Below, in pieces: positions 4,362 through 42,612 of a stretch of 64,000 bases of DNA (positions within the stretch are counted from its first letter, which is position 1; every line of letters starts with the position of its first letter). The stretch is taken from positions 23,710 to 87,709 of the forward strand of contig CALVDP010000002.1 in the NCBI GenBank assembly GCA_944326315.1. The letters are read 5' to 3'. The position numbers and the translations under genes were made by a program. The notes under the pieces are model-generated. The model ran no database searches. It was given only the letters and a program-made list of their open reading frames with translations, and had not been told where the DNA came from. The DNA is from an uncultured Bacteroidales bacterium (GTDB lineage Bacteria > Bacteroidota > Bacteroidia > Bacteroidales > UBA932).

Positions 4362-5141
4362 TTACCATATAAACGGTATAAGATTCTTTTTCTTGAGTTC
4401 CTTGTATTCGTCACCGAATTCTTCCTCGTATTTCTTGGTAAGGGCCTTCGATCTCGGCGCCAGGTTGGCGAATGTCCATACTGCGAACAGCAGGCCTGCA
4501 GGAGACCATGTGAGAATCGCATAGCCTACCCATTCTGTCAGCTCCCCGAAGTAGTTGGCTGAGGTGACATATTTGTAGAGACCCTTCTTCGGTATGTAGT
4601 GTTTCGTGTCTCCCGGCTTGCGCAGGTGCCTTATCACATGATCGGAATCAAGGTTTATAAGCATTCCTGCAAGGAAAAGGAGGCCTCCGATTATGAATTG
4701 CGGCGAAGACAGCCATTCGATGCCGTATTTTCCGGCAGGAGCGTACTCGAAAAGCCAGCTGCCGAGGAAATATGCGTTCAGAGCGTTGAATGTCATACCC
4801 ATGGCCATGATTATGACAGGCATTTCGCTTTTGCCCCTCATCAGGAACGGGAATATGAATGCCCGCTGGAAGTAGTGCACAAGGAAGAATGCGGCCATTA
4901 TCAGGAGTACGGTCCTGTCATTGCCGGTCTCTCTTCCTGACATCAGGAAATCGACCACATACAGCATCATGAAAATGAATGCCGGAGATTCCATGATGAC
5001 CCATGCGGCCTTGTTGTTTATCTTCGGGCCCCAGTTTGATGTGGACAGGTACCCGTACCCTGCCTTGAAGAAGAACAGGGCTATGAAGACAACAATCGCC
5101 ACAACGAACATGGCTGCCATAAGTATATAATAGGTATGCAT
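4362..5141 (-). CDS. Steroid 5-alpha-reductase-like membrane protein (DUF1295 type)
   Basis: A 259-residue integral membrane protein with about six hydrophobic segments. The C-terminal half carries the hallmarks of the 3-oxo-5-alpha-steroid 4-dehydrogenase family: GLYKYVTSANYFGELTEWVGYA, a final membrane span, then the cytoplasmic tail EEFGDEYKELKKKNLIPFIW. The conserved asparagine-tyrosine and glutamate-tryptophan pairs bind NADPH in this family. It is the first gene of a two-gene operon with an old-yellow-enzyme reductase. A -7 box (TAACTTTG on the minus strand, 5166-5173) lies 25 bases upstream. In gut Bacteroidota homologous reductases have been linked to bile-acid and steroid reduction; here the substrate is unproven, and some family members act on other lipids. 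Confidence 0.82.
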   Translation of the reverse strand: MHTYYILMAAMFVVAIVVFIALFFFKAGYGYLSTSNWGPKINNKAAWVIMESPAFIFMMLYVVDFLMSGRETGNDRTVLLIMAAFFLVHYFQRAFIFPFLMRGKSEMPVIIMAMGMTFNALNAYFLGSWLFEYAPAGKYGIEWLSSPQFIIGGLLFLAGMLINLDSDHVIRHLRKPGDTKHYIPKKGLYKYVTSANYFGELTEWVGYAILTWSPAGLLFAVWTFANLAPRSKALTKKYEEEFGDEYKELKKKNLIPFIW

Positions 5142-5165
5142 TGCTACGGTCTGATTGTTTTCGCG

Positions 5166-5214
5166 TCAAAGTTAATAAACATTTTTCTCATATCAGTTTT
5201 TTTGACTAATTTTG
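5166..5214. promoter_or_regulatory. Divergent promoter region, reductase operon and pyrG
   Basis: On the minus strand CAAAGTTA (5166-5173) reads TAACTTTG, a -7 box for the reductase pair. On the plus strand TAATTTTG (5207-5214) is a -7 box 30 bases before the pyrG ATG, with a T-rich stretch near the expected -33 position. Neither has a perfect TTTG -33 element, so only the -7 boxes are well supported. Confidence 0.5.
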
Positions 5215-5243
5215 TACCCCTGTAACGTTAAAACAGATTTTCT

Positions 5244-6893
5244 ATGAATCCTAAATATGTCTTCGTTTCAGGGGGTGTCGCATCTTCCCTGGGTAAGGGT
5301 ATAATTTCGGCATCACTGGCCAAACTGCTTCAGGCCAGAGGATTGAGGGTGACAATCCAGAAGTTCGATCCTTATATAAATGTCGACCCGGGGACGTTGA
5401 ACCCGTATGAACATGGCGAATGCTATGTTACGGAAGACGGTGCGGAGACCGACCTGGACCTTGGGCATTATGAAAGGTTTCTCGGCGTCCATACATCCAA
5501 GGCAAACAATGTCACGACCGGAAAGATCTACAATACGGTCATCAACAAGGAGAGGGAGGGCGCGTATCTCGGCAAGACGGTCCAGATAATCCCGCACATC
5601 ACCGATGAAATCAAGAGGCGCATGCTCCTGCTCGGCAAGACCGGAAAATATGACGTCATCATCACTGAAATAGGCGGTACGGTGGGGGATATGGAGTCCC
5701 AGCCTTTCGTCGAGGCCGTCAGACAGCTTCAATGGGAGCTTCCCGAGGAAGACTGCGTGACAATCCACCTTACGCTTGTCCCTTATCTGAGCGCGGCCAA
5801 GGAGCTGAAGACAAAGCCTACGCAGCATTCTGTCCAGATGCTCCAGCAGAGCGGCGTGCAGCCTGACATAATAGTCTGCCGTACCGAGCACAAGCTCACG
5901 CCTGACCTCAGGAAGAAGATAGCCCTTTTCTGCAATGTCAAGCCGGGTCATGTCATAGAGTCTATGGATGCCGCATCAATATATTCCGTGCCTTTGAACA
6001 TGCAGGCCGAGAAGCTGGACCAGCTCGTACTTGACCATTTCGGCATCAAGGGGCTTCCAGAGCCGGATCTTACGGAGTGGAAAAAGTTCCTTGACAAGCT
6101 GTTCCACCCGAAGTCCGAGGTGAATGTCGCCCTTGTCGGCAAATATGTCGAGCTGCAGGATGCATACAAGTCCATTCTGGAATCTTTCGTGCATGCAGGT
6201 GCCGCCAACGAGTGCAAGGTAAATGTCCACAGCATCCACAGCGAATTCCTCGATCCGTCCAATGTGGAAGAGAAGCTTTCGCAGATGGATGGTATCCTGG
6301 TGGCTCCGGGATTCGGCGAGCGTGGCCTGGAAGGAAAGATCCTGGCCGTGAAATATGCGCGTGAGCACAATGTACCGTTCTTCGGGATCTGCCTCGGTAT
6401 GCAGATGTGCGTGGTAGAGTTCGCAAGGGACGTGCTCGGTCTCAAGGATGCCGTATCCACAGAGGTGAATCCGGCCACAAGATATCCTGTGATCGACCTG
6501 ATGGAAGACCAGAAGAGCACTACTATAAAGGGGGGTACCATGAGGCTCGGCGCGTATGACTGCAAGCTTGACAAGGATTCCCTCGCACACAGGATATACG
6601 GTACGGACATGATATCGGAAAGGCACAGGCACAGATATGAGTTCAACAACGATTATCTGGACATGATAGAGTCTGCCGGCATGAAGGCTACAGGAAAAAA
6701 TCCCGAGACAGGACTGGTGGAGATAGTGGAAATACCTTCACATCCGTTCTTCATAGGTGTGCAGTTCCATCCGGAACTTAAAAGTACGCCGGAGCACCCT
6801 CAGCCTATATTCGTGGCTTTCGTCAAGGCTTCGATGAAATACCGTGACGAGCATCACGGCAAGGCAGCCGGCAAACAATCTGCGGAACAGTGA
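5244..6893 (+). CDS. pyrG: CTP synthase
   Basis: Makes CTP from UTP, ATP and glutamine, the last step of pyrimidine nucleotide synthesis. The 549 residues show both halves: the N-terminal synthetase domain (KYVFVSGGVASSLGKGIISASL, EIGGTVGDMESQPF) and a C-terminal class I glutamine amidotransferase with the catalytic cysteine in FGICLGMQMC, plus the histidine-glutamate pair in VQFHPE. Length and motifs are normal. A -7 promoter box lies at 5207-5214. Its TGA stop overlaps by one base the ATG of the glutaminyl cyclase gene, implying translational coupling. Confidence 0.97.
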   Translation: MNPKYVFVSGGVASSLGKGIISASLAKLLQARGLRVTIQKFDPYINVDPGTLNPYEHGECYVTEDGAETDLDLGHYERFLGVHTSKANNVTTGKIYNTVINKEREGAYLGKTVQIIPHITDEIKRRMLLLGKTGKYDVIITEIGGTVGDMESQPFVEAVRQLQWELPEEDCVTIHLTLVPYLSAAKELKTKPTQHSVQMLQQSGVQPDIIVCRTEHKLTPDLRKKIALFCNVKPGHVIESMDAASIYSVPLNMQAEKLDQLVLDHFGIKGLPEPDLTEWKKFLDKLFHPKSEVNVALVGKYVELQDAYKSILESFVHAGAANECKVNVHSIHSEFLDPSNVEEKLSQMDGILVAPGFGERGLEGKILAVKYAREHNVPFFGICLGMQMCVVEFARDVLGLKDAVSTEVNPATRYPVIDLMEDQKSTTIKGGTMRLGAYDCKLDKDSLAHRIYGTDMISERHRHRYEFNNDYLDMIESAGMKATGKNPETGLVEIVEIPSHPFFIGVQFHPELKSTPEHPQPIFVAFVKASMKYRDEHHGKAAGKQSAEQ

Positions 6894-7657
6894 TGAATGC
6901 ATTCCTGAGAACATCTCTTGTCCTGCTTTTTGCCGTTTCTGCCTCATGCGCCTCTTCCGCGCAGGTGAAGCAGTATCGTGTGAATGTCGTGAAGCAATAT
7001 CCTCACGATGTCCGGTCCTATACACAGGGGCTGTTCATAGAGGACGGACAGATGTACGAGAGTACAGGGCAGTACGGCAGTTCTACCTTCAGAAAGGTGG
7101 ATATGGCCACAGGCAGTCCTTTGCGGCGGCTTGACTTCAGCGACAGGTATTTCGTGGAAGGTTCCGTGGCTCTGGGTGACAGCCTGTACATACTTACATG
7201 GACCAGCAGGGTGGCTTTCATATATGATTTCAATACCCTTGAGTATATTGCGACACGTTCATACCCGCATCAGGGCTGGGGTATCACTACCGACGGAAAA
7301 CAACTTATAGCCAGCGACGGCTCCTCAAGGCTGTATTTCATGGACAAGGACCTGAATATCGTGAGGACAGTCAATGTGAGGCTGCACGGCAAGCCGTTGA
7401 ATTATCTCAATGAGCTGGAATATATAGATGGAAGGGTCTGGGCCAATGTCTATACCACGAACATGATAGTCTTGATAGACCCGGATACCGGCATGGTGGA
7501 CGGGGTGGTGGACTGCACCGGCCTTCTCCCGCAAAAGCTCAAGACACCGGATACCGATGTGCTCAACGGCATCGCGTATGACGGGGACACGGGGAAGATT
7601 TATCTTACCGGCAAGAACTGGCCGCTGCTTTTCGAAGTGGAAATAGAGGAGAAATAA
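6893..7657 (+). CDS. Glutaminyl-peptide cyclotransferase (bacterial beta-propeller type)
   Basis: Predicted exported enzyme that converts N-terminal glutamine of proteins to pyroglutamate. The protein of 254 residues starts with a signal peptide (MNAFLRTSLVLLFAVSASC, then ASSAQ) and continues as the plant/bacterial glutamine cyclotransferase fold: YPHDVRSYTQGLFIEDGQMYESTGQYG near the N-terminus, then LNELEYIDGRVWANVY and DVLNGIAYDGDTGKIYLTGKNWPLLFEV near the C-terminus, all diagnostic. The cysteine in the signal could be a weak lipobox, so lipidation is possible. The ATG overlaps the pyrG stop. In Bacteroidota this matters because signal peptidase products often begin with glutamine; that link is general knowledge, not visible here. 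A strong terminator follows directly. Confidence 0.85.
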   Translation: MNAFLRTSLVLLFAVSASCASSAQVKQYRVNVVKQYPHDVRSYTQGLFIEDGQMYESTGQYGSSTFRKVDMATGSPLRRLDFSDRYFVEGSVALGDSLYILTWTSRVAFIYDFNTLEYIATRSYPHQGWGITTDGKQLIASDGSSRLYFMDKDLNIVRTVNVRLHGKPLNYLNELEYIDGRVWANVYTTNMIVLIDPDTGMVDGVVDCTGLLPQKLKTPDTDVLNGIAYDGDTGKIYLTGKNWPLLFEVEIEEK

Positions 7658-7660
7658 AAG

Positions 7661-7688
7661 AAGCCTGCATCACTGCAGGCTTTCTTTC
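7661..7688. terminator. Bidirectional terminator after the glutaminyl cyclase gene
   Basis: Perfect 9-bp arms AAGCCTGCA and TGCAGGCTT around a TCAC loop, followed by TTTCTTT on the plus strand and by a TCTTTTATTT tract on the minus strand. It ends the pyrG transcript and would also end a transcript coming from the promoter at 7837-7867 on the minus strand. Confidence 0.8.
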
Positions 7689-7832
7689 TGGTTAGTTAAT
7701 AGTGTAATTTTTCTTGGCCTTATAACAAGGCTGCAAATTGTGGTTAGTATTTTTACAGCTTAAAAATTTAAAGGCAGACGCCTTAAGTTGTTTAAAGATT
7801 ATAATGAAAAATCATTATCTCCTTATGAACAT
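7661..7832 (-). ncRNA. Candidate small RNA between two strong signals
   Basis: A perfect minus-strand promoter at 7837-7867 has no gene in front of it; about 165 bases further on comes the hairpin terminator at 7661-7688. Between them lie several possible hairpins: ATAATGA/TCATTAT (7800-7818 region), AAGGC/GCCTT, ATTTTTA/TAAAAAT and GCCTT/AAGGC. Near the 5' end an AAGGAGATAATG start is followed by a seven-codon frame (MIFHYNL). The length and setting fit a free small RNA, perhaps of the 6S type, but I do not recognise a known family with certainty. Confidence 0.45.
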
Positions 7833-7836
7833 TTGA

Positions 7837-7867
7837 CAAATATAAGGATAATTTTCAGTCTCGCAAA
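7837..7867 (-). promoter_or_regulatory. Perfect Bacteroidota promoter without a downstream gene
   Basis: On the minus strand TTTG (7864-7867), a 19-base spacer, then TATATTTG (7837-7844) match the Bacteroidota sigma consensus exactly. It points away from trmD into a stretch without an ORF and so probably drives the candidate small RNA. Confidence 0.75.
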
Positions 7868-7909
7868 TAATTTTCAATTTTTTGCACAATAATTTCAAAT
7901 TATTTTTTA

Positions 7910-8587
7910 TTATTCTTCCAGGAGTCCGGGACGGAGTTTTCTTGTCCTTTCCACAGCCTGCTCGTCCTGCCATTGGCGGATGAGTCTGGGATTCCCGCTC
8001 AGCAGCACGTCAGGCACCTTCCATCCGTTGAATTCGGCAGGCCTTGTGTAGACAGGAGGGGACAGAAGGCCGTCCTGGTAGCAGTCGCTCAATGCGGAAG
8101 TCTCGTCTGAAATGGCTCCAGGCAAAAGTCTGACGACCGCGTCTGCTATGATGGCCGCAGGAAGTTCGCCTCCGCTGAGCACATAGTCTCCGACAGTGAT
8201 CTCCCTTGTGACAAGGTGTTCCCTGATACGGTGGTCGACACCCTTGTAATGTCCGCACAATATGATTATGTTTTCCTTGAGGGACAACTCGTTCGCCATA
8301 TTCTGGGAAAACTGTTCCCCGTCGGGGGACATGTAGATCACCTCGTCATATTCCCTCTCTTCCTTCAGCCCTGTGATCATCCGGTAGACCGGCTCGACCA
8401 TCAGCACCATTCCCGCATCGCCTCCATAGCTGTAGTCATCGACCTGCAGCCTGGGTCCCTTCCCGTATTCCCTGAGATTGTGGACATGTATTTCCACAAG
8501 ACCTTTCTTTATCGCACGTCCTACTATGGAATGGCTCAACGGGCTTTCAAGCAGCTCCGGTACCACGGAGATTATGTCAATCCTCAT
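7910..8587 (-). CDS. trmD: tRNA (guanine-N1)-methyltransferase
   Basis: Methylates G37 next to the anticodon of certain tRNAs, which prevents frameshifting. The 225 residues fit the SPOUT/TrmD family: [21 protein letters not shown] at the start, [26 protein letters not shown] and the knot motif [23 protein letters not shown]. The start at 8587 was chosen because the frame continues upstream for more than 300 codons without stop, but that part is only the complement of the DUF349 gene. It is divergent from the DUF349 gene, with 132 bases between the starts. Confidence 0.95.
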
Positions 8588-8683
8588 AATACTGTATACA
8601 TTATTGCATGTAATGCCATTATTTTTTGTTCTGGAAATTGCAAAATTAACAAAATTATCTCTGCGTGAATTGGCAAAAATTGA

Positions 8684-8691
8684 TATATTTG
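8684..8691 (+). promoter_or_regulatory. -7 promoter box for the DUF349 gene
   Basis: TATATTTG lies 28 bases before the ATG at 8720. No good TTTG is found 19-21 bases upstream, so the -33 part is weak. It supports the start at 8720 over the TTG at 8696. Confidence 0.5.
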
Positions 8692-8719
8692 CAATTTGAA
8701 ATTTAACTCTTGTAACATT

Positions 8720-10555
8720 ATGACCGAAGAAAAGAATCCGGAAGTGCTGGATGTGCCGATGGAAGCCGTTGAAAATGAAGAGACCACGCAGGTGAATTAC
8801 TCGGAGAAGAGTCTTGCCGAGCTTGCTGATCTTTTTATGGAACTTGCCAGGAATCCGGAAAGGATGAAGATGAACAAGGAGGCGGATGCCATAAAGTCCG
8901 CATTCTATAAAAATCTTACCAGGGAAAAGGCGGCGGCAGGCATAGCAGTGCCGGAAGATACGGCCGTGGAGCCTTCTGACGATGCCGCGGATGCGCCGGT
9001 CCCGGAGTCCTCTGAGGGGGAGGAGCATGTGGCCGAAGCCGCACAGGAGACAGAAGAATCCGTGTCGGACAATCCTTTTGCTGAAATTGAAAGAGGATTC
9101 AAGGCTCTGTATAACGCATACAGGAAAGAGCGTGCGGAATATAACAGGGAGCAGGAGAAGGAGAGAGAGCACAATCTTGAGCTTAAGGAGGCTGTCATAA
9201 AGGATCTTAAGGCGCTTCTTGAGAAACAGGAGGATGTGAACAGGACTTTCCCCGAGTTCCGCGAGATCCAGAACAGATGGCGTGCGATAGGACAGGTGCC
9301 GGTGCAGAGTTTCCGGGATCTGAATGATACGTATCAGCTGTATGTGGAGCAGTTCTATGATATGGTCAAGATCAACAGGGAGCTGAGAGACCTTGATTTC
9401 AAAAAGAACCTTGAGGTCAAGACCGGATTCTGCGAGCAGGCGGAGAAGCTTGCCGAAAGCGATAATGTGGTCGAAGCATTCAAGGAACTGCAGCGTCTTC
9501 ACGAACAGTGGAAAGAATACGGGCCGGTAGCCAAGGAATTCAGGGAATCCATCTGGGATCGCTTCAAGGCTGCCACTGCTGTCATCAACAAGAAATATCA
9601 GGCCCACTTCGAAGGCCTCAAGGAGCAATATGCGGAGAATCTCGCTGCCAAGACACGCTTGTGCGAGCAGGTGGAGGAGATAGCCTCGAAGGAGAATATA
9701 GCGGCTCCGGAATGGAATACCCTTTCCAAGGATATAGAGGAAATCCAGAAGCAGTGGAGGACTATCGGCTTCGCTTCCAAGAAGGAAAACCAGAAGATAT
9801 ACGACCGTTTCAGGGCTGCCTGCGACAAGTTTTTCGAGAGGAAGAGAGACTTCTATGCCGGCTACAAGGAGAATATGAACTCCAACCTTGAGAAGAAGAT
9901 AGCGCTTTGCGAGGCGGCAGAAGCCCTCAAGGACAGTACGGACTGGAAGAAGACCGCCAGCCAGCTCATTAACCTTCAGAAGCAGTGGAAGGAAATAGGG
10001 GCGGTGCCGCGCAAGAAGTCAGAGCAGCTGTGGAAGCGTTTCCGTGCCGCATGTGATGCATTCTTCAACGAAAGGGACAAGAATGTGAAGCCAGAGAATG
10101 ATTTCTACGGCAACCTGAAGGCCAAGCAGCACCTTGTCGAAGAAATTGCTGCCTACAGCCTTACGGGCGACGAGGATGCTGACGCCGATGCAATGAACGC
10201 ATTCATGCAGAGGTGGCAGGAGATCGGCTTCGTGCCATTCAAGGAAAAGGATGCGATAGCCAAGAGCTATAAGGATGCACTGCAGTCCACTTTCGGAGAC
10301 CTTGTGTCCAGGACACGCAAGACAAGGTATGCAAAGGCTCCGAAGAATGAGAAGGAGCGCCTTGTGCAGAAGTATTTGAAGAAAGAACAGGATATCACCA
10401 CTTATGAGAACAATATTGGTTTCTTCGCCATGTCCAAGAATTCAGAGCCTCTGATCAGACAGATGCAGGACAGGATCGAACAGGCCAAGAAGGAACTTGA
10501 GGAGCTCAAGGAGCAGATCAGGGCTATAGACAGTGCCTCTGAAGCTGCGGAATGA
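8720..10555 (+). CDS. DUF349 domain protein
   Basis: A highly charged, largely helical 611-residue protein with about five DUF349 repeats. Each repeat has a core such as [55 protein letters not shown] and [15 protein letters not shown], separated by helices of about 70 residues. The first 140 residues are acidic and of low complexity. The C-terminal 50 residues form a likely coiled coil. The family is conserved in Bacteroidota and unstudied as far as I know; a cytoplasmic role is likely since no signal or membrane span is visible. A TTG 24 bases upstream is in frame, but the ATG at 8720 is preferred because of the promoter position. yidC follows in the same direction. Confidence 0.85.
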
Positions 10556-16540: not shown

Positions 16541-17356
16541 TTAATAATTTATATCAAAACCTATGGCTCTCAGCCTCTCAAGCTCGGTATAGTCTGTACA
16601 GTCGATATTGTGTGGTACTATCGTGATGTATCCTTCCTTGTTGTACCTGTGGTCAGCATCCGCAGGGTTCCTGTCATCGTCCTTAAATTCACCGGACATG
16701 ATGAAAAGCCTCTCTCCGTTGCCGGCCGCAGCCTCTGTCTCCCTGCCTTCCGGCATCCCTGCCTGATCCCAGGAAAGGAATTCCTTTATCCATCTTCCCT
16801 TGCCTTGGGATGCGGTCCTCAGTCCGGCAACAGGAACGGACGCTCCAGGAAAATTAATATTGTAGTAGATGCCGTATCCGGTAGCCCGTGATTCAAGGAG
16901 TTTCGTGATGATGCCCGGCAGATATTGCTGTACCTGACTGAAGTCTTCGTCCGCCTTCCATGTATCCATAGACACCCCGATGCCTGTTATACCGCACAGG
17001 GCAGCTTCGGCAGCCGCTCCGAGTGTCCCGGAATAGCACACGGCCGAAGCCGCATTGGAACCGTGGTTGATGCCTGAAATCACGAGGTCTGGAATATCCC
17101 GGGAGACGATTCCGTTGAATGCGAACTTCACGCAACTGGCCGGAGTGGCGTCAAGATATGTCCACCGCACACCATCTTCTGTCCCGAGATCCTTGTATGC
17201 TATGGCCTGTCCTCCCATTGAAACCGCCATCGACATGCCTGACTGTGGCCTTTTGGGGGCTATTACCGTCACTTTCCCGAATTCTTTCATGATTTCTGCA
17301 AGGACTCTGAGACCCTTTGCCTTGTAGCCATCGTCATTCGTCAGCAAAATATTCAT
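16541..17356 (-). CDS. surE: 5'-nucleotidase SurE
   Basis: Metal-dependent nucleoside-monophosphate phosphatase linked to stationary-phase survival. The 271 residues begin MNILLTNDDGYKAKGL, with the paired aspartates that bind the metal, followed by VIAPKRPQSGMSMAVS and PDLVISGINHGSNAASAVCYSGTLGAAAEA. The frame is open for 57 codons upstream, but those run through a promoter-bearing repeat, and a perfect promoter at 17381-17412 places the transcript start about 20 bases before this ATG. It precedes lpxB. The cargo transposon inserted about 170 bases upstream of the start. Confidence 0.95.
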   Translation of the reverse strand: MNILLTNDDGYKAKGLRVLAEIMKEFGKVTVIAPKRPQSGMSMAVSMGGQAIAYKDLGTEDGVRWTYLDATPASCVKFAFNGIVSRDIPDLVISGINHGSNAASAVCYSGTLGAAAEAALCGITGIGVSMDTWKADEDFSQVQQYLPGIITKLLESRATGYGIYYNINFPGASVPVAGLRTASQGKGRWIKEFLSWDQAGMPEGRETEAAAGNGERLFIMSGEFKDDDRNPADADHRYNKEGYITIVPHNIDCTDYTELERLRAIGFDINY

Positions 17357-17380: not shown

Positions 17381-17412
17381 CAAATATACGCTGAAGCCGA
17401 GAGCAATGCAAA
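17381..17412 (-). promoter_or_regulatory. surE promoter inside a repeat unit
   Basis: On the minus strand TTTG (17409-17412), a 20-base spacer and TATATTTG (17381-17388) match the Bacteroidota consensus. The same arrangement with nearly the same spacer (CATTGCTCTCGGCTTC...) occurs in front of rsfS at 42574-42605. Confidence 0.8.
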
Positions 17413-17510
17413 TGAACTTGTTCAATTTGCATTGCCGAGGCGCTACAGGATATGTGGCGAAGCCAAATATCGCTGAAGCCGAGAGCAATCCTGGAAGCAC
17501 CACAGGATAT
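17381..17510 (-). repeat. Promoter-bearing repeat, two units, upstream of surE
   Basis: Read on the minus strand, two related units (about 17463-17510 and 17381-17456) share ATATCCTGT, a GCGCCTC-like box, TTGCTCTCGGCTTC and an ATATTTG box with the three units at 42410-42612. The unit next to surE contains a palindrome (17404-17436; GCAATGCAAAT arms) whose inner arm positions differ from the other locus yet still pair. The outer unit has GATATTTG instead of TATATTTG and lacks the palindrome. Confidence 0.8.
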
Positions 17511-17525
17511 AAGTTTTGTTTTTTC

Positions 17526-17555
17526 AATGATTATCCGCTAAAGTACCCATAAGGT
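17526..17555. repeat. Left terminal inverted repeat of the transposon
   Basis: Begins AATGATTATCCGC and continues with a TACCCATAAGG block. It pairs with the complement of 20910-20939, identical over the first 13 bases and partly over the rest. Confidence 0.85.
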
Positions 17556-17632
17556 CTGAAAATTCTATGGGCTTCAGTTGGTTATCTGCCCGGATTTTAC
17601 TATATTTGTATTGCATTCAAATACTTTGAGAC

Positions 17633-18572
17633 ATGAAACTTTTCGAGTTCGAGAGGCACTTCCCAGACGAGGAGAGCTGCCGCAACAGATTCCGTGATTT
17701 AAGGCTTAAACAAGGTGTCGTATGCCCCAAATGCGGTTGCACGCACCATTACTGGAAATCCGACAAGGGCATGTTCCAGTGCAAGGAGTGCGGACACCGC
17801 CAGAGCCTGCGATATGGGACGGTCATGCAGGGGTCGAAACTGCCTTTCCGCTATTGGTTCATAGCCATGCACCTGCTCACAGCCACGAAACATACATTCT
17901 CTGCCGCTGAACTCCAGAGACAGTTGGGTCATAACCGATATCAGCCTATCTGGGAGATGGTGCATAAGATTCGCTCCGTTATGGGTCAGAGGGACAGCGA
18001 ATACATGCTGACCTATTCCGTGGAACTTGACGAGGGATTCTTTACTGTCGGCACTCCGAGAAAGGAGGAGAAAATGGTGCAAGGGTCGAAAGAGAGGAAA
18101 GCCACCGTCCTTGTCATGGCAGAGAGCATCGAGGTTGAAAAACCAAAGCCGAACATGAAGAAAAAGAAGGTCGGACACCTGAAGATGATAGTAATTCCCG
18201 ACACGAAGAAATCCACGATTACAGAAAAGGCGGTCGATATTATCCCATAAGGATGCACTTGTCAGCATGGATGCCAGTCATTCACATTCAGACATAGAGA
18301 AACTATACAAGTCAGACTGTCGGAAATCAATCACGCAGGAGGATATAGATAACTTCCTTCCGTGGGTGCATACGACACTATCGAACGCCAAGTCGCTGCT
18401 ACTGGACACCTATCATGGTATAAAGAGGGAATATCTCCAGGAATACCTGAACGAGTTCTGCTACAAGTTCAACAGACGGTACTTCGGAGAAGACCTTTTT
18501 GACCGTTTATTGATGGTTAGCGCGGGGTACAGGACGGAGTTTCAGCACCGGACTTACAGGAAAGAGGCATAA
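17633..18572 (+). pseudogene. IS1595/ISXO2-family transposase, frameshifted
   Basis: Two adjacent frames together give one full ISXO2-type DDE transposase of about 312 residues. The first part (17633-18250) has the N-terminal zinc finger (CPKCGCTHHYW and CKECGHRQSLRYGT), the family's LPFRYWF and LDEGFF, where the first catalytic aspartate lies, and ends KKSTITEKAVDIIP then stop. The second part (from about 18249, ATG at 18267, to 18572) continues KDALVSMDASHSHSDIEKLY, HTTLSNAKSLLLDTYHGIKREYLQEYLNEFCYKFNRR with the second aspartate and the glutamate. One extra base, most simply in the CCC run at 18244-18246, explains the break. I see no clear slippery site, so loss of function, or a sequencing error, is likelier than programmed shifting. 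Confidence 0.85.
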
Positions 18573-18609
18573 TGTTTAGTGCCAACTAACAAAGTTACAC
18601 TGCAAAGAT

Positions 18610-18650
18610 AACAACCCCAGACGATATTGAGAATGTTCTGGGTTGTTTTT
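18610..18650 (+). terminator. Terminator after the transposase
   Basis: Arms AACAACCC(C)AGA (18610-18621) and TCTGGGTTGTT (18637-18647) with one bulged C, followed by T residues. It lies between the convergent transposase and DUF2335 genes. Confidence 0.7.
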
Positions 18651-18668
18651 ACTCATATAAATGTTGGA

Positions 18669-19151
18669 TTATTGTTTCTTTACACTCTTTTCATGTAAAT
18701 CTTTCTTTATTTGTATTTTGCCATTGATAAATAGTGCAATGATTACAACAACGGTTCCTGTTGCGAATATACCGGCAAAAGTCTTCATATCTAACAGTGC
18801 AAATATAAGCGACAGTATTATTCCGAGAATGAAGACTACAAATCCAAAAATTTGCCCTCTTCTATTTATCTTCAGATGATTGTCTATATTTTTTGTTTCA
18901 AGAACTATTCTATGCTCCTGCTGTTTTTCAGCCATTTTAAGTATGCGGTCCGCACTTCCGGGAAGAACAGCCTCATATTCCCTGATTATTTTAGGATGCG
19001 GTACCGGACCTTCATAATATTCTTGACAAATAATGGATAACGCCCGAGTTGCAACATCTTTTTTATCTTCAGGTACTACATTAAGCAATGTGTCTATTGC
19101 ATCTTGGGTAGAGTTTTCCAAAGGTTTTGCTACTTCTTCCGTCTTTTTCAT
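18669..19151 (-). CDS. DUF2335 family membrane protein (transposon cargo)
   Basis: A 160-residue protein matching the DUF2335 family of predicted membrane proteins. The soluble N-terminal half is mostly helical and holds the family core GPVPHPKIIREYEAVLPGSADRILKMAEKQQEHRIVLE. Two membrane spans follow (GQIFGFVVFILGIILSLIFALL and FAGIFATGTVVVIIALFI), then a lysine-rich tail. The gene starts 2 bases after the small-membrane-protein gene and shares its promoter. Codon use is AT-rich, unlike the host genes around the element. The function of the family is unknown to me; the layout of a soluble domain plus two spans would suit a membrane-acting effector, which is only speculation. Confidence 0.75.
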   Translation of the reverse strand: MKKTEEVAKPLENSTQDAIDTLLNVVPEDKKDVATRALSIICQEYYEGPVPHPKIIREYEAVLPGSADRILKMAEKQQEHRIVLETKNIDNHLKINRRGQIFGFVVFILGIILSLIFALLDMKTFAGIFATGTVVVIIALFINGKIQIKKDLHEKSVKKQ

Positions 19152-19153
19152 GG

Positions 19154-19360
19154 CTATATTTTGAATGATTCTATAGCTTTTTTCATGTCTCGCCCTATAA
19201 CGCCAAAATCAGACTCCATTGCTATTCGATCTGCCTCGTAGGATGAATCAGAATAATTGAAAGTAAAATATGACGAAAATATACTCAATATACTACCAGC
19301 CCCAATCCAAAATGAAGATTTGGAGAAAAGGAAGTCTGTCCGATAATAAGAACGTTTCAT
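19154..19360 (-). CDS. Small 68-residue protein with a membrane segment (transposon cargo)
   Basis: Begins MKRSYYRTDFLFSKSSFWIGAGSILSIFSSYFTF, giving one hydrophobic segment at about residues 15-34, and ends in a charged helix (DRIAMESDFGVIGRDMKKAIESFKI). The frame is open upstream to 19447, but a perfect promoter lies at 19396-19426, so the ATG at 19360 is the right start. It is translated just ahead of the DUF2335 gene, 2 bases apart, and is likely its partner. I recognise no family. Confidence 0.6.
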   Translation of the reverse strand: MKRSYYRTDFLFSKSSFWIGAGSILSIFSSYFTFNYSDSSYEADRIAMESDFGVIGRDMKKAIESFKI

Positions 19361-19395
19361 GATGCTTTTATTACAACTAAAGTTGTTTTGTACCA

Positions 19396-19426
19396 CAAAT
19401 ATAATCACAAAAACCGAATAAGCAAA
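19396..19426 (-). promoter_or_regulatory. Promoter of the two-gene DUF2335 cargo operon
   Basis: On the minus strand TTTG (19423-19426), 19 bases, TATATTTG (19396-19403): an exact Bacteroidota promoter about 36 bases before the 19360 ATG. It shows the cargo carries its own expression signal. Confidence 0.75.
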
Positions 19427-19475
19427 TGCTGTTCCATAACATAACATCCTTGCAATAAGGTCAAAACGAGCCCCA

Positions 19476-19503
19476 AACGGGCGACTCGCAAGAATCGCCC
19501 GTT
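19476..19503 (-). terminator. Hairpin between cargo genes
   Basis: Arms AACGGGCGA and TCGCCCGTT, 9 bp. It lies downstream of the zinc-ribbon gene and upstream of the 19396 promoter, so it probably ends the first cargo transcript. The T-run is short. Confidence 0.5.
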
Positions 19504-19538
19504 ATCATTTTATGTATTTCTTTTCTTCAAAAAGTAAT

Positions 19539-19883
19539 TTAACTGCACATACTTATGATGAATAAAACTATAAACATAATTACGATATATATAGCCCCTA
19601 AAATAATTTTAGTCTTTAAGTTTTCATAATCTTGTTGTTCCTTTTTCTTTATCTGAGCATCACTTACAGGACTTGTTCTTAATTCCCCTGGTTTTAATTC
19701 CCTTCCGCACTTCAAACAAGTGATTTTAACTTTACCGCTTCCAATAAATCCTGCCAATAAGCCAATTCCCCCAGTAAGAACAGCGCCCGTTAATGCTTTA
19801 CCAGCACCAAACCCTTTCTTATTGGCGGTTAATTGAGAACTGCCGCAATATGGACAATATAACTTATCACTATGCTCTTCCAT
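19539..19883 (-). CDS. Zinc-ribbon membrane protein (transposon cargo)
   Basis: A 114-residue protein. Two cysteine pairs (LYCPYCGSSQ at about residue 9 and CLKCGREL at about 56) form a split zinc ribbon around a glycine-rich hydrophobic stretch (GFGAGKALTGAVLTGGIGLLAGFIGSGK) of the glycine-zipper type. A charged linker (DAQIKKKEQQDYENLKTK) leads to one C-terminal membrane span (IILGAIYIVIMFIVLFIISM). Similar ribbon-glycine-zipper proteins are common in mobile regions, with unknown roles. It starts 62 bases after the DUF4468 gene and may be co-transcribed with it. Base composition is AT-rich as in the other cargo genes. Confidence 0.7.
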   Translation of the reverse strand: MEEHSDKLYCPYCGSSQLTANKKGFGAGKALTGAVLTGGIGLLAGFIGSGKVKITCLKCGRELKPGELRTSPVSDAQIKKKEQQDYENLKTKIILGAIYIVIMFIVLFIISMCS

Positions 19884-19945
19884 AACTTACTTCTTAAGCA
19901 GTACGATGATTAATAAATAGTCTTTAGACATTCGATTATATCAGA

Positions 19946-20512
19946 TCACCAATCTTCCTCATTGCTACCAGAAAATATCCCATTACGTAGTCTGGATATG
20001 TAATCTTCAAAGAAAGTCTCTATTGAAAACAATGCAGTTTCATTTATGACTTTCCCTTTTTTGTTGAACACCCCGTTCTTAAAATAACCAAGACCTACAA
20101 TATAAAACTCGCTATAATTATATGGCGCGTTGTTCGGATTATCCATAGATACAATATATGGAGCATTTATTCGCATTCTTTCTTCCCTTATTTGTATTGA
20201 AATTGTATATTTTATATCATAAAATGACTTCCTGTCGGTTTGAATAGCATTTTCACCTAATCCATTGATTGTAATTAAATTATTACCAGATAGGCTTAAT
20301 ACAACATCGGGATTCACATAGATTGAATAAAGATACGATACTGTGGCATTAAAGATTTCCTGCTGGCTTTTTCCGGGAAACTCATAAACGACATAATTTT
20401 TCCCCGGAGTTTTAGGATTAACAAACCCATCAGGAGTCAATAAGAATTGCGCTTCTAAAGGCATGGTACACAACATCAGCATAGATGTTATAAATAATAA
20501 TCTCTTTACCAT
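19946..20512 (-). CDS. Secreted DUF4468-type protein (transposon cargo)
   Basis: A 188-residue protein with a clear signal peptide (MVKRLLFITSMLMLCTMPLEAQ) and a body resembling the DUF4468 family with a TBP-like fold: GKNYVVYEFPGKSQQEIFNATVSYLYSIY, an IQTDRKSFYDIKYTISIQIREERMRI strand region and a C-terminal helix (FSIETFFEDYISRLRN). It is probably periplasmic. The ATG at 20512 was chosen because the frame before it codes for no signal and crosses a -7 promoter box (minus-strand TATATTTG, 20626-20633). Function unknown. Confidence 0.65.
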   Translation of the reverse strand: MVKRLLFITSMLMLCTMPLEAQFLLTPDGFVNPKTPGKNYVVYEFPGKSQQEIFNATVSYLYSIYVNPDVVLSLSGNNLITINGLGENAIQTDRKSFYDIKYTISIQIREERMRINAPYIVSMDNPNNAPYNYSEFYIVGLGYFKNGVFNKKGKVINETALFSIETFFEDYISRLRNGIFSGSNEEDW

Positions 20513-20800
20513 AATTCTATAGATTTGGTTTAACGTTCGTGCCTGTAAATGGCAACCGCTAACCAAACAGAGAAAGCGTGGATAAATTTGTTGTTGAGAG
20601 GTACGACCAAGCACCCATACAGACACAAATATACCCACGCTATAACGTGAGCATTTTGTCTATTGTGCTGTCTGTAAGAATAAATTGGTCGTTTTCTCAA
20701 CAAGACAATAGCCCAAATGCCATCTTATTGCAAAGTTCCGGAGCATTTCTCCGCTCCGATATGGCAAAGGTAGAAATAATTCGCCATTTGACAAATGAGC

Positions 20801-20833
20801 ATTGTAAGAATTGGAGGAAAATGTTTATCTTTG
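20801..20833 (+). promoter_or_regulatory. Possible outward-facing promoter at the transposon end
   Basis: ATTG (20801-20804), 21 bases, then TATCTTTG (20826-20833). One mismatch from TTTG in the -33 box. It points out of the element toward gapA. Confidence 0.4.
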
Positions 20834-20879
20834 CTGAACTCAAAGTAAAGGGCGCGTGAGCGTCCGAATGAATGCAATC

Positions 20880-20901
20880 GAGGGAGGTCTTTGCCTCCCT
20901 C
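20880..20901 (+). terminator. Hairpin near the transposon right end
   Basis: Perfect 8-bp arms GAGGGAGG and CCTCCCTC around TCTTTG, without a strong T-run. It would separate the outward promoter from gapA. Confidence 0.4.
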
Positions 20902-20909
20902 TCTCATTT

Positions 20910-20939
20910 ACCCTTTGGGTATTATTGCGGATAATCATT
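20910..20939. repeat. Right terminal inverted repeat of the transposon
   Basis: Ends GCGGATAATCATT, the exact complement of the left end over 13 bases, with GGGTA further in matching TACCC of the left end. Confidence 0.85.
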
Positions 20940-20989
20940 GTTTTTTCTAAAAATTGGAGTCGGACTCTATGAATCTTCGTATTTTTTCT

Positions 20990-20997
20990 TAATTTTG
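20990..20997 (+). promoter_or_regulatory. gapA -7 box
   Basis: TAATTTTG, 78 bases before the gapA ATG; no clear TTTG at -33. The leader contains a short hairpin (CTTGC/GCAAG, about 21013-21030). Confidence 0.45.
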
Positions 20998-21063
20998 CAA
21001 AGATTTTCAAGACTTGCTTTTATCAGGCAAGAATCTTGATTTAATTTGGAAGTTTTACTTTAA

Positions 21064-22074
<1,011 letters not shown>

Positions 22075-42409: not shown

Positions 42410-42612
42410 CACATATCCGGTGGCGCCTCCTTTGGCAAGCTCTCGGCTTCTGTGATATTTGACCTGCGGTCACATATCCGGTGGCGCCTCGGGGAATGCT
42501 CTCGGCTTCTGTGATATTTGGCCTGCGGCCACATATCCGGTGGCGCCTCGGCAATGCAAATCAAACAAGTTTGTTTGCATTGCTCTCGGCTTCTGTGTAT
42601 ATTTGCCCTCTG
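42410..42612 (+). repeat. Promoter-bearing repeat, three units, between birA and rsfS
   Basis: Three tandem units (42410-42470, 42471-42529, 42530-42612) share CACATATCCGGTGGCGCCTC, GCTCTCGGCTTCTGTG and ATATTTG. The first two are about 60 bp. The last is longer because of a palindrome (42551-42583, GCAATGCAAA arms) that holds the -33 box. The same design lies in front of surE at 17381-17510. CGCCAC and GTGGCG in each unit can also pair. Only the last unit has a perfect TATATTTG. Confidence 0.85.
42574..42605 (+). promoter_or_regulatory. rsfS promoter inside a repeat unit
   Basis: TTTG (42574-42577), a 20-base spacer and TATATTTG (42598-42605), 34 bases before the rsfS ATG. The spacer is almost identical to that of the surE promoter. 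Confidence 0.82.

Follow-up and report, generated by a model that had tools for sequence, protein, structure and literature searches.

A cargo-bearing transposon of the IS1595 family in Bacteroidales, with exchanged cargo and a candidate antisense RNA at its right end

The stretch analysed here, 64,000 nucleotides from an uncultured Bacteroidales bacterium (contig CALVDP010000002.1; "the window" hereafter), contains an element of 3414 bp at positions 17526-20939, located between surE (minus strand, start at 17356) and gapA (plus strand, start at 21076). Its ends form an inverted repeat whose first 13 bp are perfect: the left one (17526-17555, plus strand) starts with AATGATTATCCGC, and the right one (20910-20939, minus strand) is the reverse complement. 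With one base of the duplication included, the two arms measure 31 nt each and are 84% complementary. Directly outside lie the two copies of an 8-bp target duplication, GTTTTTTC, at 17518-17525 and 20940-20947. The G+C content is 0.32-0.38 across 18500-20749, against mostly 0.47-0.55 in the flanks shown. The ends, the duplication, the AT-rich composition and an IS1595-family transposase had been described in a first-pass annotation of this DNA, and we found them as described there. Below, G-numbers denote the genomes and L-numbers the loci with which the window element was compared.

The transposase gene occupies 17633-18572 on the plus strand; a frameshift of one base divides it into 17633-18250 and 18267-18572, that is, 205 open codons followed by 101 codons in another frame. 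Its N-terminal piece contains a zinc finger (PF12760, E 3.3e-11) and matches NF033547 with 102.7 bits, for a cut-off of 75, while the C-terminal piece contains the DDE_Tnp_IS1595 domain (PF12762, E 1.1e-8). The catalytic motif of the IS1595 family is D-D-N-K; residues D133, D216, N254 and K256 are invariant across five aligned relatives, and in the window copy they fall in two frames. Judged by its transposase domain, zinc ribbon and 8-bp duplication, the element belongs to the IS1595 family. A zinc finger at the N-terminus is reported, in the accessible text of PMC8101967, for all IS1595 groups but IS1016. Ends starting with GG are described there for Merlin, and GGGG for ISApl4 in PMC12561309; the accessible text of both sources states no family-wide rule. 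The ends of the window type read (A/T)ATGATTATCCGC, beginning (A/T)ATGATTATCC, and those of the insertion sequence (IS) ISBbi1 also start without GG.

Four cargo genes lie on the minus strand, convergent with the transposase. The DUF2335 gene (18669-19151) encodes a membrane protein of 160 aa (PF10097, E 1.4e-16). Next to it is a gene for a small membrane protein, a DUF2335 partner in two other genomes, at 19154-19360 in an open reading frame that is open from 19447. Its presence agrees with the first-pass annotation, but its start, which is uncertain, may be 19360 rather than 19447: the alignments of two relatives begin at residues 29 and 14. Beyond a hairpin at 19476-19503 (AACGGGCGA...TCGCCCGTT) lies the gene previously called a split zinc ribbon (19539-19883, 114 aa), with a glycine-rich insert and a hydrophobic C-terminus; it matches the LITAF-like family just below the cut-off (PF10601, E 1.4e-4, 22.4 bits for a cut-off of 23.8). 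The fourth gene (19946-20512, 188 aa, with a signal-peptide-like start) is likewise present as annotated, but its assignment to DUF4468 is below the Pfam cut-off (PF14730, E 0.006, 17.4 for 22.6 bits). It is preceded by a cargo leader and a predicted cargo promoter (20513-20795, minus strand), with a box, TACCTTTG, at 20772-20765 and TTTG at 20795-20792, identified by the promoter consensus. The leader also contains two inverted repeats, at 20575-20641 and 20651-20720, of which AGCGTGG/CCACGCT is kept in L027 despite a different loop. The earlier statement that this cargo matches no described passenger set was not contradicted, within limited literature searches.

The same ends are found elsewhere. 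In L027 (CASEBV010000010.1, a metagenome-assembled genome of an uncultured Bacteroidales, genus-mate of the window organism), they surround 3247 bp, are flanked on either side by CATTTTTT and lie among different genes. These ends, together with the transposase and two of the four window cargo genes, are thus present at an unrelated locus with its own perfect duplication, and the block therefore moves as a unit, as had been proposed. In G029, six contig ends carry an element end of the left or right type, and their 8-bp flanks (TAAAAAAT, TAAATTTT and ATAAAATT) match up to give three insertions; a DNA search matched only the right-end stretch in that genome. A search of the ends across genus genomes, suggested with the first-pass annotation, found the extended end pattern (at most one mismatch) in 16 of 400 genomes, the window's own included, against one match each in 2 of 400 for the reversed pattern used as a control; the pattern is not due to chance. 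A related transposase was found in 24 of the 400 genomes at E <= 0.001, seven of them, including the window's, at E < 1e-60. As to individual genomes, G157 has 14 end-sequence matches and G100 has 9, and G157 is absent from the transposase matches.

Facing ends accompanied by an 8-bp duplication were then scanned for as pairs in 956,760 bases of partly overlapping loci. Further elements were found, against 0 pairs in the reversed control: elements of 7587, 2169, 1052 and 1010 bp with perfect 8-bp duplications, short elements of 173, 534 and 598 bp, likewise with perfect duplications and the first of them from the window's own genome, and, in later loci, elements of 2307, 1048, 1064 and 983 bp, and of 2325 and 1028 bp, again with perfect duplications. 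A 208-bp element with one duplication mismatch and two overlapping, ambiguous one-mismatch pairings in L111 were left uncounted. The L029 left flank is left out of the duplication comparison, and the L026 flanks match as a duplication only at a one-base offset. The 173-bp element (L102, G000:C103:10568-10740) contains no transposase; it belongs to the same end family and has a perfect duplication, TTAATCTT. A composite transposon, with two IS copies around the cargo, was ruled out for the window element, given one transposase, one end pair and one full match in a 95.6%-complete genome. Sequence comparison shows that the zinc-ribbon transposase acts on the (A/T)ATGATTATCCGC ends and inserts the whole segment into AT-rich 8-bp sites, duplicating them.

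What the neighbourhood looks like without the element was asked of other genomes of the genus. A search for gapA gave a match in 127 of 151 genomes; its 30 best loci were examined. In 24 of these, surE adjoins gapA, the two being separated by 102-182 bp that contain no element; in the available flank of the other six (L144, which is the window's own, L160, L161, L164, L166 and L167), surE was not found. The element-free gap that the first-pass annotation expected is therefore seen, but not the single retained copy of GTTTTTTC, which is present in 0 of the 24 gaps, so that the exact pre-insertion site is not demonstrated; the surE-gapA spacer differs between species. In the left flank, an 18-bp exact repeat, GCTGAAGCCGAGAGCAAT, lies at 17390-17407 and 17472-17489 (chance expectation 0.00), with a copy carrying two mismatches on the other strand at 42579-42596.

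The comparison with L027 bears directly on the cargo. The two elements share their left 1978 nt, which contain the transposase, DUF2335 and the small membrane gene, at 97% identity. Per 100 nt, identity is 97-100% over about 17726-18325 and 18526-19425, and 83-86% over 17626-17725 and 18326-18525; it is near random over about 19504-20509 and then 82% across the last 430 bp. In this middle block, L027 has one gene for a lipoprotein-like protein of 240 aa in place of DUF4468 and the zinc ribbon. The borders of the exchange are sharp: the DUF4468 start codon (20510-20512) on the right, and the outer edge of the 19476-19503 hairpin on the left. Given this uneven identity, the copies look like mosaics with the middle block replaced, and the cargo, as read from these alignments, is modular and swapped among elements that are otherwise alike. 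The simplest account of the swap would be homologous recombination in the flanks that the element copies share. An integron-like site at the borders was considered by eye and dropped. A point against so general a statement is that the window element and L027 are the only nearly identical pair. Overall, we consider it very probable that the element is a cargo-bearing IS1595-family transposon whose cargo is exchanged between copies.

Cargo exchange is seen on a wider scale in a second clade, whose members have related transposases, a helix-turn-helix (HTH) gene 76-84% identical to that of L029, and the same kind of right end. The cargo is a KilA-N gene in L029 (with a degenerate relative in L224) and a BRO-N gene in L177 and L218. 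In L026 (positions 4848-8890 of IMGVR_UViG_3300032030_000015, a viral contig of 145 kb), it consists of a C5 methylase and a HaeII-type endonuclease. The 7587-bp element, in G138, contains radical-SAM/SPASM, WG-repeat and small genes. We compared these proteins with PADLOC, a library that covers both known and candidate proteins of defence: the KilA-N proteins match PDC-S22, the BRO-N proteins match PDC-S13, and the G138 radical-SAM protein also matches viperin models (E 2.6e-14).

The question arises as to whether the window cargo is itself a module directed against phages or mobile elements and retained for the protection that it gives the host. The sister elements, with their HaeII restriction-modification genes and PDC-S22 and PDC-S13 matches, point in this direction, and so do the neighbourhoods of cargo relatives. 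DUF2335 genes are present in 4 of 250 genus genomes, the window's included. In G168, the gene has a small gene in front and stands among other genes; in G330 (L131, 1163-2000), DUF2335 and a small partner lie beside a Mu F-like gene; and in G176 (L132, 3046-3573), DUF2335 has Toprim and S49-peptidase genes nearby, in what looks like a phage-type arrangement. Relatives of DUF2335 also occur in 18 of 50,697 phage records and 11 of 72,556 plasmid records. The sole protein-level relative of the zinc ribbon among the loci compared, in G193 (L133, 2866-10233), is situated between a Piwi/SIR2 pair and a gene for an SMC-like protein of 986 aa. These contexts hint at mobile or defence islands as the source of the cargo. 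However, PADLOC gave no convincing match for any of the four window proteins (best E 0.016), which leaves neighbourhood as the remaining support, and we hold the defence function to be a tentative reading, somewhat short of an even chance. In the other three genomes with DUF2335, the pair scan found no facing ends with a duplication around the gene in the available stretches, and such cargo therefore also exists elsewhere. Cargo without these ends, which the first-pass annotation would have counted against a transposon, is thus partly found, and it leaves the reading as a unit unharmed.

The state of the transposase requires a separate discussion. It is in one frame in L027, G138, L028, L026 and L029. 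In L027 it forms a single frame of 312 residues, and the two copies differ there by one base in length; single open frames are also found in the close relatives G138 (327 residues), G139 (339), G412 (312) and G100 (333). Because the relatives examined carry one open frame, a programmed frameshift is not preferred. The family of the transposase annotated earlier holds, with the correction that its frame is split, which concerns the activity of the window copy and not its descent. With its transposase frameshifted, this copy probably no longer moves by itself, unless the frameshift is an assembly error; having intact ends, it could be mobilized by a related transposase. That the break arose during assembly and the element is in fact intact appears less likely than not to us, even if the length difference is a single base and the window belongs to one draft genome in 103 contigs.

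A further feature came from comparing the inward sequences of both ends, which revealed stretches common to the right end and the transposase leader. On the left, a predicted transposase promoter box (TATATTTG, 17601-17608) and the leader together span 17601-17632 (plus strand). On the right, a predicted promoter box (TATCTTTG, 20826-20833, plus strand) is followed by a candidate antisense RNA (20836-20909, plus strand), made of an arm (20839-20847), a hairpin (20850-20865), a second arm (20869-20878) and a terminator-like hairpin (20880-20901). Leader stretches 17610-17619 and 17622-17630 are complementary to this candidate. The boxes, of the form TAnnTTTG, are promoter predictions based on the consensus. 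The same order of TAnnTTTG box, GGCGCGTGA-GCGTC core, arm and terminator-like hairpin is found in the window element, L027, L026, L029, L177, L218, L224 and L028. The core is able to form a hairpin, and the arm, which ends in AATGC, complements the leader, which begins with GCATT directly behind the transposase's TAnnTTTG box. This complementarity extends over 18 nt in L026, 17 in L029 and L177, 13 in L028 and 10 in the window element, and a second complementary block across the hairpin measures 9 nt in the window element and 11 nt in L027. The z-scores of the folds are -4.77 for the window (20839-20911), -3.92 for L026, -2.92 for L029 and -2.51 for L028. An Rfam search across 17400-21080 gave 0 matches at E <= 0.5.

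Several observations suggest that the pairing is maintained. The best duplex energy of each RNA version is obtained with its own leader or one from its own clade. When overlapping windows of equal length were scanned within each locus, those pairing at least as well numbered 0 of 1332 in L026, 0 of 708 in L029, 0 of 2173 in L177, 10 of 1783 in the window element, 3 of 1599 in L027 and 5 of 1598 in L028. Four distinct arm versions form 45 of 52 in-register pairs with their leaders, the best among the 24 permutations, with three pair types at position 6 and two at position 7, and L218 differs from L029 by a compensating change from A-U to G-C. The L028 element has its RNA gene inverted, on the other strand, where it is still antisense to the leader. 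Finally, the best complement of the leader within the element is the RNA site in the window element, L027, L026 and L029.

We propose that a short RNA is transcribed outwards from the right end and that its arms would bind the 5' leader of the transposase mRNA, thereby limiting translation of the transposase. It would thus act like RNA-OUT of IS10, though encoded at the other end of the element; on the pairing analysis, we incline slightly towards this reading. Several results weigh against it. Six sequences were resampled per element; an energy at least as good as that of the element's best complement was obtained from 2 of the 6 for the window element, from 5 for L027 and from 4 for L028, where the best window lies elsewhere. 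Such an energy was obtained from 0 of 6 for L026, L029 and L177, but the best window of L177 also lies elsewhere, and L031, a plain IS without such an RNA, equally scored 0 of 6. The window element also contains an antisense block of 11 nt, longer than either arm, about 1.55 kb from the transposase start, presumably due to chance. In L026, L029, L177 and L218, the core doubles as the 3' end of an HTH frame, so that part of its conservation is coding; an interpretation of the core as a pure RNA motif was corrected on seeing this in L026 and L029. Moreover, the L026 arm pairs with the L218 leader as far as L218's own arm does, via G-U pairs. G138 shows no such RNA, and the motif is rare, in 1 of 237 genomes (the window's own) and in 2 of 128 (L028's own genome and G801, whose contig, a remnant, showed no transposase). 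Among viral contigs, the strict core pattern gave 0 matches, and the relaxed one a single match, in L177's contig. Apart from the terminal repeat, no antisense block of at least 11 nt was found inside G138 or the plain ISs L031, L032, L176, L179 and L183.

By these comparisons, the pairing is strong in one clade and moderate in the window element. In view of the element-wide controls, the coding core, the G-U cross-pairing and the promoters being predicted from a consensus, we grade the right-end RNA as likely in the L026 clade and as a little better than even in the window element. Two other explanations are considered: a leftover or chance complementarity, and a DNA site.

A working antisense RNA might exist only in the clade of L026, L029, L177 and L218, the complementarity of the window element being a leftover or fortuitous. 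The unexceptional element-wide control for the window element, L027 and L028 would fit this, as would the presence in the window of only 7 uninterrupted in-register pairs plus the second block of 9 nt; its transposase is also broken, and selection on the pairing may therefore be relaxed. However, the position of the site is fixed by core homology, and there so few windows do as well (10 in the window element, 3 in L027); L027, whose transposase is intact, keeps its 11-nt block. We thus find this explanation doubtful. Rather improbable, in our estimation, is that the arm is a DNA site, a subterminal repeat bound by the transposase or the HTH protein and alike at both ends: the shared stretch is inverted in the window element, L026 and L029, as end-binding sites would be, and several elements contain an HTH gene, but in L028 the stretch is in direct orientation and yet antisense to the leader (which also weakens an ordinary subterminal inverted repeat as the cause of the conservation), the versions shown have promoter box, hairpin, arm and terminator-like hairpin in succession, pairing persists although the letters change, and no HTH gene is seen in the window element.

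Taken together, and at even odds, these elements may form a Bacteroidales family of cassette transposons, in which the ends, the transposase and a leader-pairing right-end RNA are fixed and the inner block, often of defence type, is freely exchanged. The RNA would perhaps have been born as the 3' tail of the HTH gene and freed in the branch of the window element and in L028, tracking its target by paired changes though encoded beyond the cargo, and even when inverted.

The nearest named relative we found, by sequence, is ISBbi1 (L176, on a Bacteroides fragilis plasmid), which has 45.7% transposase identity, an 8-bp duplication (AATAAATT) and related ends (TCTGATTCTCCGC), but is a plain IS of 983 bp without cargo, in which no right-end RNA was seen. 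Tn7-like transposons with defence cargo (PMC8649781, in its accessible text) resemble the sister elements by the type of cargo, but use other transposition machinery, in contrast with the single IS1595 transposase here. ISs with passenger genes have been described as 'transporter IS' (PMC3129680, citing Siguier et al. 2009), and the window element resembles them, as far as the accessible text goes, in its IS1595 zinc-ribbon transposase, its 8-bp duplication and its passenger genes, unrelated to transposition, inside one IS-end pair. It differs in that near-identical copies have swapped their passenger block and in having the candidate right-end RNA, neither of which is mentioned in that text. 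Passenger-carrying ISs were therefore already known; here, near-identical copies with swapped cargo show the exchange itself, with sharp borders. In the RNA-IN/RNA-OUT system of IS10, the start region of the transposase mRNA is the pairing partner of RNA-OUT, which is transcribed there from the opposite strand (PMC5006887, in the part available). The candidate RNA would share with it the short length and the complementarity to this region, but RNA-OUT lies opposite the transposase start and the candidate (20836-20909) about 3.2 kb away, beyond the cargo. In a literature search with little subscription coverage, the accessible text of papers that name both IS1595 and antisense RNA did not join the two. 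If the RNA works, control of the transposase would be independent of overlap with its gene, leaving the inner block free to change, and the leader and RNA would provide a simple two-part test of antisense control in Bacteroidales mobile elements.

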